A stretch of 64,000 nucleotides of DNA from contig NC_013923.1 of assembly GCF_000025625.1 (NCBI RefSeq), positions 248,001-312,000 on the forward strand, read 5' to 3'. The stretch is from Natrialba magadii ATCC 43099 (lineage in GTDB: Archaea > Halobacteriota > Halobacteria > Halobacteriales > Natrialbaceae). Position 1 is the stretch's first letter, and each line of letters opens with the position of its first letter. The translations under genes were made by a program, and so were the position numbers. Under the pieces are notes generated by a model. The model made no database searches and was not told the DNA's origin. It saw nothing but the letters and a program-made list of their open reading frames with translations. Of this stretch, positions 30,760-33,537 are shown piece by piece.

Positions 30760-31497
30760 CTACTCAGCCGACTCGAATCCCCACGCTTCGAGGCGCTCGA
30801 CAACGTCGTCGACGTTGTGCATCGCAGCCTCGTATGCCGCCTCGCGGACGTCCGTCTTCGACACCTCGGTTCCGAGTTCGTCACTCACCGCAGCGACGAA
30901 CTCGTCTTCGGCGTCGACGAGGTAGTCCCGAAGATAGAACTGCACCATGCCGCGGTCCTGCTTGACGTTGTCGCGAACGTACACCCACGGAATACCGCCA
31001 TCATCAGCGCCAGCCTGTGGCGGTTCCGGGACGACGGCGTTCGTCTCTTTTGGCGCAGTCTCGTCACCAGTAGTTGGTCCCGCCTCGTCACCAGTAGTTG
31101 GTTCCGCCACACTTGCTGCTGGCGTCTCCTCGCCGGCCTTACTCGAGTCCCCCTCGGTTGCAGCGGCTTCATCGAACGTTGTCGTCGTTTCGGTGCTCGC
31201 CGAGTGTGAGTGGGAGGTACTCGAGTTGTTGGTCGTCTCGGCTGTGTCCGTGCTCGTGTTCGTGTCCGTGTCTGGTTCTGTCTCTGTCTCTGTCTCTGTC
31301 TCTGTCTCTGTCCCTGCCGTTGCCTTTGCCGACCCATCCGTCGTCTCTTGTGCAGATTCGACAGCCTCCTGTTCCGTTGCTGAGGAATCACCGGCGTCCT
31401 CGCTGGCCGGTTCAGCCTCGTCTTCTTCGTGATCCGTTCCGTCGTCAGTTTCCGCCTCGTGATCTGCGAACGGATCGCTGCCAGAGCCTTTCTTCAT
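30760..31497 (-). CDS. ParA-associated partner protein with acidic repeat linker
   Basis: A 245-residue protein whose start overlaps the parA stop codon, so the two are co-translated. It begins MKKGSGSDPFADHE, then has about 150 residues of very acidic, low-complexity Thr/Glu/Asp/Ser sequence including a TE-repeat coded by five perfect 6-bp units (31281-31310), and ends in a compact conserved-looking domain (IPWVYVRDNVKQDRGMVQFY, then DELGTEVSKTDVREAAYEAA). The layout of a disordered linker with a C-terminal domain fits a ParB-like or adaptor partner, but I see no helix-turn-helix, so DNA binding is not established. Confidence 0.7.
   Translation of the reverse strand: MKKGSGSDPFADHEAETDDGTDHEEDEAEPASEDAGDSSATEQEAVESAQETTDGSAKATAGTETETETETETEPDTDTNTSTDTAETTNNSSTSHSHSASTETTTTFDEAAATEGDSSKAGEETPAASVAEPTTGDEAGPTTGDETAPKETNAVVPEPPQAGADDGGIPWVYVRDNVKQDRGMVQFYLRDYLVDAEDEFVAAVSDELGTEVSKTDVREAAYEAAMHNVDDVVERLEAWGFESAE
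31281..31310. repeat. Hexanucleotide repeat inside the ParA partner gene
   Basis: Five perfect copies of TCTCTG (plus degenerate neighbours) encode the Thr-Glu repeat on the minus strand. The unit is a multiple of three, so gain or loss of copies would change linker length without breaking the frame. Confidence 0.85.
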
Positions 31498-32342
31498 AGC
31501 CCGCCCACCTCTTCGACCTGTGTTGCCAGGTCGTCGATCTTCTCGAGTGTCTCCATCTCGTGGTCGCGCGTGCGGTCACGGTACTCCTCGACGTAGTACG
31601 CCGGCGTACACTGCTGGTCCCAGCAGCCTTCGAACAGGGACGAGCGTTCTCGCAGCGCGACAGGTGCGGGGTAGCCGCGTTCGTGAATCTCGTTGAGGTA
31701 GCGTTCCTGATCGGTCGTGCGCCCGATACCGTTCGGGACGGCAGCAAGGACACCGATTTCGGCTTCGAGTCGGTCCTCGAGGCCCTCGACGAGTTCCTCG
31801 AGACCGATGACACTTTGCATTCCCTTTCCGGTTGGTTCGACCGGGATGACCAGACTCCGGGTCGCCGACACTGCGTTATAGAGGTGCGGGCCAGCCGTCG
31901 CCGGCGGGTCGACGACGATGACGTCGTACTCCTGTGGAATGCCGGCGTCCATGAGCACCTGCCGGAGTCGGTCGTACGGATCGAAGTCGTCGCCCTCGCC
32001 GAGGTCGTCGGCCATCTGCTGGGCGCGGTTCAGGAGATCCTCGAGATTCTCGAGCATGTTGTGACTCGGGAGCAGATCGAATCCGTGTTCTGTCTCGTGG
32101 ATGAGGTCGGCGAGGTCGCCCTTCGGTCGATCGATCATATGCCGGACGATGTTGTCTGCCTGGCTGTCGTCTCGCGGCGCGTCCACGTCGAGCAGATACG
32201 TTAGCGAACCGTTCTGCTGGTCCATGTCGATCGCAAGCACATCGAGTCCGTGTTCAGCGTGGGCTTCGAGCAGTGCTGCGCCGACGGTCGTCTTCCCGAC
32301 GCCGCCCGCCTCCGAGTAGGTCGTGTACGTGAGCATACCCAC
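31494..32342 (-). CDS. parA: ParA/SopA-type partition ATPase
   Basis: A 282-residue ParA-family protein. The deviant Walker A (EAGGVGKTT) begins at residue 11, with Walker A' LDVLAIDMDQQNGSLTYLL and Walker B YDVIVVDPPATAGPHLYNA following. It has no N-terminal helix-turn-helix, so it resembles type Ib ParA/Soj proteins. It heads an operon with the acidic partner gene. Directly upstream is a gene-free tract of 1.2 kb with repeated GTTAG-N-CTAAC palindromes, which is the expected position of a centromere and of autoregulatory sites; a TATAATA-type box lies about 21 bases upstream. Role in chromosome or megaplasmid segregation is inferred. Confidence 0.88.
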   Translation of the reverse strand: MGMLTYTTYSEAGGVGKTTVGAALLEAHAEHGLDVLAIDMDQQNGSLTYLLDVDAPRDDSQADNIVRHMIDRPKGDLADLIHETEHGFDLLPSHNMLENLEDLLNRAQQMADDLGEGDDFDPYDRLRQVLMDAGIPQEYDVIVVDPPATAGPHLYNAVSATRSLVIPVEPTGKGMQSVIGLEELVEGLEDRLEAEIGVLAAVPNGIGRTTDQERYLNEIHERGYPAPVALRERSSLFEGCWDQQCTPAYYVEEYRDRTRDHEMETLEKIDDLATQVEEVGGL

Positions 32343-33537
32343 CAGTTAGTCTCCTCGAATATAATACTCCGCAATACGAATTTCAAAGCCTAATGAAATA
32401 GCATAACTAGTTAGCCTAACCGAGAAGACAGACACCATTGTGATGGGCCGGTAGTACGCTTCAGTGGACGAGTTGCCAAGAACGGGAAGCCAACTACCCA
32501 TACGGGCCTGCTACCAGGATAGTCAACACAGGTGGCCTAACCAAGAAGCCTAACCAGGAAGAGTTCCTAGACTAGCTACCTCAATATGCACGTCCGTCTG
32601 TGAGTAGATATAGTAGCCACTGCAAGTCAATGCACACCTGGTCGCCAGCCTGCTCGGCGATCAGTGTGTAAATAGTTGCAGTTGTTACTATAGTGTGCAG
32701 CAGCCCTGATAGATAGTCTGTCTAGTTAGGCTAACCAAATATGCCAACCAGAATCCCCGACCAGAATGCTCAGATAAAACACGTACCAGCTCTCAACCGA
32801 GGCGCATGGATCGAGCGTTCAATGAGCCCGACCAGTTAGCATAACCGATCAGGATACCGAAGTAGTCAAACTCGAGATACTCGATAGCTATACAGATCTG
32901 ATAGGCAGTCCAGAAACGAATCATAGCCACCACCGAGAAACGCATCGAATAGGCTTCCTGGTTAGGCCGCCCCGATAGGCCAAATGAATATGTCAGTCAG
33001 TACGTCCAGAGCGACAACCCATGACAAAGCGAAGCCAGTCGTGAGTGGGCAACTCGAGTACCACGTCAACGAGCACCCAAACTGCGAACTCTATCACCTA
33101 TCTAGGAAGAATAACCAGATGGCCTAACTAATTAGCCCACCTGAATAGACCAACAGAATCGTCTTGAAGAGAGGGGCAACCAAAGACAGTGATGACACTC
33201 AACAGGTTTGAGGACTAGCAACAACCGCTAGCGAGTTAGTCTAACTAGACAGCCTAACTAGCTAGTCAGCTAAGTTCACCATCCCAGAACGATCAGATCA
33301 GTGTACAGATTATGAGTTAGTAGGCACAGTTGATAGGAAAAACGGATTGGGGTCAGATCGGACGGCTGCTAGACCGTATTTGGTTTCGGTGGTGTACCGT
33401 AACCGACATGACAGAGCGTGGTTGTGGCTAGTTCTGATATGCCATGTTACTGGAGAACAGGAGCCATAGATAGGGTTCGCGGGTTGCCGGCTAACGAACT
33501 CCTTTGAACAAATAGGATAAGGAACTGGTACTTATCC
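32343..33537. repeat. Gene-free tract with GTTAG-N-CTAAC palindromes (putative parS/centromere region)
   Basis: About 1.2 kb, visibly AT-richer than its surroundings, with no credible gene. Near-identical 11-bp palindromes occur at 32410-32420 (GTTAGCCTAAC), 32725-32735 (GTTAGGCTAAC), 32835-32845 (GTTAGCATAAC) and 33235-33245 (GTTAGTCTAAC). Half-sites GCCTAACC at 32535-32542 and 32548-32555 are 13 bases apart; others are at 32345, 32961, 33121-33139 (GCCTAACTAATTAGCC) and 33252-33270. Arrays of inverted repeats beside parA are the hallmark of partition centromeres; they could also be iterons of a replication origin, but no Orc1/Cdc6 or Rep gene is in the window. It also holds one 86-bp hairpin repeat. 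Confidence 0.65.
32608..32693 (+). repeat. 86-bp hairpin repeat, copy B
   Basis: Same length and same terminal sequences as the copies at 4271-4356 (opposite orientation) and 45092-45177. The central stem is CTGGTCGCC paired with GGCGATCAG, with one G-T wobble at position 4, where copy A has C-G and copy C has A-T. It lies inside the palindrome-rich tract upstream of parA. Confidence 0.85.

Follow-up and report, generated by a model that had tools for sequence, protein, structure and literature searches.

A phased array of 13-bp units upstream of a ParA-family ATPase gene is a candidate centromere of the Natrialba magadii replicon pNMAG01

We analysed a stretch of 64,000 nucleotides (the window) that corresponds to bases 248,001 to 312,000 of pNMAG01 (378,348 b; C2) in the 4.44 Mb genome of Natrialba magadii ATCC 43099, whose other replicons measure 3,751,858, 254,950 (C3) and 58,487 b. 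pNMAG01, on which rRNA genes are located, has been termed a small chromosome (PMC3403918), and its faithful inheritance should therefore matter. At the locus considered here, a parA gene and an overlapping downstream gene, termed the partner, are preceded by 1.2 kb of DNA that is bounded on its far side by a MATE transporter gene (33538). The first-pass annotation of this tract, as a gene-free and AT-richer candidate centromere, holds in substance with its details corrected. No ORF of 80 aa or more was found in window positions 32343-33537, and the GC content is 48% (32343-33300) compared with 60% for the whole window, but the repeat array extends only to about 33265, leaving the last 270 bp of the originally reported stretch outside it. 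The features of the locus are listed in the table.

Table. Features of the parA locus, with coordinates as positions in the window.
Feature	Position	Strand	Basis
Partner, candidate centromere-binding protein; MKKGSGSDPF start, acidic linker, C-terminal domain at residues 160-245	30760..31497	-	4-bp overlap with parA
parA, Walker ATPase, 280 aa from ATG 32336	31494..32336	-	Pfam AAA_31 1.5e-18
Half-site CCAGTTAGTC between TATA-like box and start codon, candidate operator	32342..32351	.	same place in 6/6 other Natrialba loci
TATA-like box (GTATTATATT), parA operon, about 26 bp ahead of ATG	32358..32367	-	sequence; same place in Natrialba relatives; promoter function inferred
Centromere-like array, seven clusters of 13-bp units, CTAACYRRNTAGN	32390..33265	.	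lag-13 vs 5,000 shuffles; PWM from 7 relatives; seven clusters in three other Natrialba
Cluster 1, closest to parA, contains palindrome 32410-32420	32390..32427	+	PWM, exact palindrome
Cluster 2	32525..32562	+	PWM
Cluster 3, contains palindrome 32725-32735	32705..32754	-	PWM, exact palindrome
Cluster 4, contains imperfect palindrome 32835-32845	32816..32865	+	PWM, palindrome search
Cluster 5	32941..32990	-	PWM
Cluster 6, longest of the seven	33098..33161	+	PWM
Cluster 7, contains palindrome 33235-33245	33228..33265	+	PWM, exact palindrome

Judged by its profile matches, the ATPase is a member of the ParA/MinD group: besides AAA_31, the ATPase family profile that is characteristic of type I partition, it matched CbiA (4.9e-10) and the structures of Soj/ParA proteins (best 1.4e-13). 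Its probable start is the ATG, with a GTG at 32342 lying two codons upstream. The Walker motif begins at approximately residue 8-10 from the ATG, there is no N-terminal HTH domain, and centromere-like repeats lie upstream of the operon, the latter two features being those that define type Ib partition systems. The deviant Walker A motif with its signature lysine (KGGxxK[S/T]) was not found. All 89 family members lack this lysine and read SE[A/S]GGVGKT (SEAGGVGKT in N. magadii), with alanine, or in one case serine, at the position of the lysine of KGGxGKT.

The partner is annotated as a hypothetical protein, and neither Pfam nor NCBIfam assigned it to a family. A simple ORF rule recovered its gene from 53 of 61 loci in one survey and from 28 of 30 in another, and at these loci the gene either overlaps the end of parA or adjoins it. 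The proteins have a common build, of an (M..)MKxGxGxDPF start followed by an acidic linker of variable length and a conserved end domain of approximately 80 residues. Close species have linkers of different length (partners of 154-245 aa), and at 31276-31313 an expanded six-base repeat encodes Thr-Glu repeats in the linker of the N. magadii protein. AF2 models of end domains from two classes agreed with one another, presenting an extended segment followed by one long helix and two shorter ones (pLDDT 88 for N. magadii and 93). From these models we suspect that the end domain is the monomer of a ribbon-helix-helix protein, in which the strands would pair only in the dimer. Searches with the domain profile against PDB chains returned no sequence match to a DNA-binding protein, hhalign found no match between the domain and the RHH_1 proteins of the same genome, and all Foldseek E-values for the end-domain models exceeded 0.2.

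Upstream of parA, the TATA-like box lies at the distance expected of a leaderless archaeal transcript, if its promoter function is as predicted. Because a conserved half-site is situated between this box and the ATG, autoregulation of parA is plausible, as had been proposed from the proximity of the first palindrome to the parA start, which was given as about 70 bases and measures 74 bp to the probable ATG. We additionally identified a short element, CGTCAGAC (read away from parA), approximately 34 bp before the parA start and beside the TATA-like box, that spans array classes. It is exact in 36 of 88 loci and present with at most one mismatch in 54 of 88, compared with no exact copies in control DNA 100-300 bp further out; examples lie within the first 70 bp upstream of parA in L044, L045, L128 and L166, and a degenerate copy occurs at window positions 32368-32376. 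It could be part of the promoter, or else a second conserved site for binding.

The first-pass annotation had described four GTTAG-N-CTAAC palindromes and at least six half-sites in the tract. Three of the palindromes are exact (32410, 32725 and 33235) and the fourth (32835, GTTAGCATAAC) is imperfect, with one mismatch; the tract contains 8 CTAAC and 7 GTTAG. Positions 32343-33300 contain 13 half-sites, approximately six times the average of 2.0 in 5,000 dinucleotide-preserving shuffles, among which the highest count was 7; none of these shuffles reached the three palindromes of the same interval. Across the entire window there was no excess of palindromes with two or fewer mismatches (13 against 11.8 expected); this count is misleading because it ignores clustering, 7 of the 13 lying inside the tract.

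The main order of the tract is a phased unit of 13 bp, which had been missed, and the palindrome is its by-product. The unit has the consensus CTAACYRRNTAGN and ends in CTAAC and TAG, so that two adjoining units form GTTAG-N-CTAAC, and each palindrome is a unit junction. The 11-bp palindrome was accordingly rejected as the repeat unit, the spacing being 13 bp. The self-match of the tract at lag 13 is 0.383, a value that none of 5,000 dinucleotide-preserving shuffles attained even at its best lag between 5 and 65. When the entire 378-kb replicon was scanned for lag-13 self-match in 400-bp windows, independently of any motif, the top ten windows all fell in the tract. A position weight matrix (PWM) placed the units in seven clusters, each of 38-64 bp, that lie 111-186 bp apart.

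This arrangement is shared with close relatives. In six other Natrialba genomes and one Natrinema, in which parA is 87-98% identical, the top lag upstream of parA is likewise 13 or 26, and seven clusters were also identified in three of the other Natrialba genomes, indicating that the number has been kept across four species. In Natrinema altunense (L043 / L124) a transposase-like gene interrupts the tract approximately 740-1440 bp upstream of parA, and three clusters are left.

We investigated the distribution of the motif over the genome by a genome-wide search for the exact palindrome, and by a motif model of two joined units that was trained solely on seven relatives and then run on N. magadii (score cut-off of at least 16; main chromosome represented by a 400 kb sample of its 3.75 Mb). 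An even spread over the genome had been named in advance as the outcome that would speak against a centromere. Instead, all five exact palindromes in the 4.44 Mb lie on the 378-kb parA replicon, three of them in the tract. Of the sites identified by the motif model, 22 fell within the 1.2-kb tract and 8 on the remainder of the 378-kb replicon; the 255-kb replicon had 3, the 58-kb replicon had 1, and the 400 kb of main chromosome sampled had none. Strong distal sites on the 378-kb replicon lie at 150.03, 150.34 and 359.37 kb, the last of these upstream of a gene, unrelated to the cassette, that reads like an M24-type peptidase. The palindrome at 359.4 kb has been kept at the orthologous place in 4 of 4 genomes in which the flank was found, while the intergenic surroundings have diverged; in draft assemblies these orthologues lie on contigs other than that of parA, and their replicon is uncertain.

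Several minor observations were made during these searches. Isolated palindromes in two other genomes (G005:C39 and G003:C36) stand without any units beside them and were set aside as chance-like. A CRISPR array of at least 14 repeats (GTTTCAGACGAACC...) occupies L073 9825-10690 (C2 149125-149990) and ends approximately 30-40 bp before the distal site at C2 150026. On the 255-kb replicon, a weaker lag-13 peak at C3 232000-232600 (L096; ~232 kb), in and before a gene resembling the Fic family, is possibly a phased array or due to chance.

Beyond the genus, the same type of ParA was identified in 33 of 61 related genomes (E 1e-40), in 177 plasmid records, the named ones being haloarchaeal, and in three contigs of a viral collection. 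Among the 60 loci with enough DNA upstream of parA, the strongest lag was 13, 26, 39 or 52 in 45, although these loci are kindred and do not amount to 45 independent cases; in the remaining quarter the top lag was not a multiple of 13. Control DNA, taken from downstream or from the parA coding region, gave top lags that were scattered or codon-like. The arrays fall into classes that are unlike in their letters and have the period in common, of the GTTAG-N-CTAAC, CAGTNANACTG, TCTAAGA, AACANNTGTTTG, AATGAACA and TAGCTANAC types. Thus, it is the architecture, not the sequence, that is common to this ParA family across the haloarchaea. When four further genomes were each searched with the motif of their own class, all 24 matches fell on the parA contig (10 of 10 in G007, and 14 of 14 in G049, G024 and G034 together), compared with 2 for reversed controls. 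The G007 matches occupy four places on a 768-kb replicon, indicating that distal sites are not peculiar to N. magadii.

Array and partner move between host families together, as a single cassette. In 66 of 69 leave-one-out assignments the array fell into the class defined from its partner, a lenient test in that close relatives stayed in the training sets, and motif class and partner class both follow the ParA tree. It is likely, from these sequence associations, that the partner is the putative reader of the 13-bp unit. Within bands of equal ParA identity, the putative DNA-reading strand of the partner was weakly linked to the motif; since the classes follow the ParA tree and this pairwise test at fixed identity is weak, we do not claim that the putative beta strand sets the motif.

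With the motif concentrated on the parA replicon, and the architecture of the array common to the ParA family, the earlier reading of the tract is supported, and the phased array is very probably the candidate centromere of the parA-partner pair. We are fairly confident that the locus as a whole is a replicon-partition cassette of ParABS type, resembling type Ib, in which parA and a co-transcribed partner are preceded by a centromere of phased 13-bp units. The observations behind this reading are the array with its periodicity and conservation, the gene pair, the restriction of the motif to the parA contig in each of four other genomes, and its strong concentration on the parA replicon in N. 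magadii. In known type Ib systems, small partners with a flexible N-terminus and a DNA-binding C-terminal domain bind repeats upstream of the operon, repress it and stimulate ParA, and the likeness to type Ib is proposed because these workings fit the gene order, the promoter position and the array. The C-terminal domain of the N. magadii partner would bind the 13-bp units as side-by-side dimers, in seven clusters over approximately 1 kb, giving a large nucleoprotein complex. Its N-terminal MKxGxGxDPF motif, held on the long acidic linker, would contact ParA-ATP on the nucleoid and trigger the ATPase, and this activity would in turn move and separate the sister replicons. Binding near the TATA box could block transcription and may thus also repress the operon, and the different 13-bp motifs of the cassettes on different replicons would allow each to recognise its own DNA molecule. 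Haloarchaea are polyploid, and as a counterpoint to a partition cassette, random segregation could suffice.

An array in this position might instead act purely as an operator for the repression of parA, by the partner or by ParA itself, and take no part in segregation. Cluster 1 and the half-site flank the TATA-like box and the start codon, some cassettes have an array of merely 100-200 bp, and the distal site at 359.4 kb precedes an unrelated gene, all of which would suit this explanation. We nevertheless consider it unlikely, as seven clusters over 0.9 kb, in a number kept in four species, far exceed the needs of an operator, and the distal sites keep to the contig that carries parA. The operator and centromere readings are in any case not mutually exclusive, because known centromere-binding proteins serve as both centromere binder and repressor.

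Short-repeat arrays beside replicon-maintenance genes can also be the iterons of a replication origin; the Deinococcus array upstream of parAB, in which ori-like and parS-like roles are combined (PMC7671480), is a precedent. For the N. magadii array this is very improbable, given that the Orc1/Cdc6 gene lies at C2 ~1.5 kb, approximately 100 kb off across the numbering origin, that the genes seen next to the tract include no initiator, and that the array travels with parA and the partner among hosts. Hardly credible is an explanation as functionless low-complexity or degenerate AT-rich intergenic DNA. The tract is AT-richer than its surroundings, as would be expected of such DNA, but the dinucleotide shuffles, the motif model trained on relatives, the family-wide 13-bp period and the conserved distal site all contradict it.

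The systems nearest to the proposed partition cassette are SegAB, AspA-ParB-ParA and bacterial type Ib, each of which differs from it in a defining point (PMC12284271, PMC5120986, PMC9178275). With type Ib systems (ParF-ParG of TP228, delta-omega of pSM19035) it shares a ParA without an N-terminal DNA-binding domain and repeats upstream of the operon; however, the units are of 13 bp, in contrast to the 7-bp heptads used by omega, the haloarchaeal partner is unrelated by sequence search and has a long acidic linker, and the haloarchaeal ParA lacks the signature lysine. SegA-SegB of the Sulfolobales similarly pairs an archaeal ParA homologue with an overlapping downstream gene for a small DNA-binding protein, here a putative one, and SegB sites are likewise 13 bp long and palindromic (TCTAGASTCTAGA) (PMC12284271). 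SegB sites are, however, single, chromosome-wide and mostly inside genes, whereas the haloarchaeal units stand in tandem, form clusters in front of parA and occur mainly on a single replicon. A SegB-type 13-bp palindrome with an AGA-S-TCT core was not found, the unit being CTAACYRRNTAGN here and different again in other classes, and, at the sequence level, no SegB chain was matched by the partner domain profile among all PDB chains.

AspA-ParB-ParA of pNOB8 is an archaeal plasmid partition system with a palindromic site upstream of its operon, and its spreading binding would be a further likeness, but it comprises three genes, uses a winged-helix binder together with a ParB adaptor, and has a single 23-bp site (PMC5120986), in contrast to the two genes and phased array identified here. 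The parABS systems of Deinococcus radiodurans also have a repeat array upstream of parAB on secondary replicons, which helps to maintain them, but these are bacterial and combine ori-like with parS-like functions (PMC7671480).

More tentatively, and as something we hold to be slightly less likely than not, the cassettes could represent a third archaeal segregation machine across the haloarchaea, with a lysine-less ParA lineage, a centromere-binding family of new sequence and possibly new fold, and 13-bp phased-array centromeres that act as an address code to distinguish the several large replicons of a cell. No published haloarchaeal centromere, or account of this partner, was found in the literature searched, from which subscription journals were mostly absent. 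The nature of archaeal centromeres, both chromosomal and plasmid, was described as an open question in a 2016 review of archaeal segregation (PMC5120986). The array provides a concrete candidate centromere for one haloarchaeal replicon, its 13-bp period a recognisable signature by which further such arrays can be found, and the partner, at present annotated as a hypothetical protein, a named candidate binder; the cassette may additionally supply parts that confer partition or incompatibility on haloarchaeal vectors. The presence of several large replicons is common among haloarchaea. Relatives of the cassette were also identified on chromosome-size contigs (L131, L136, L047, L050, L051 and L065), and some of these may be chromosomal or integrated.
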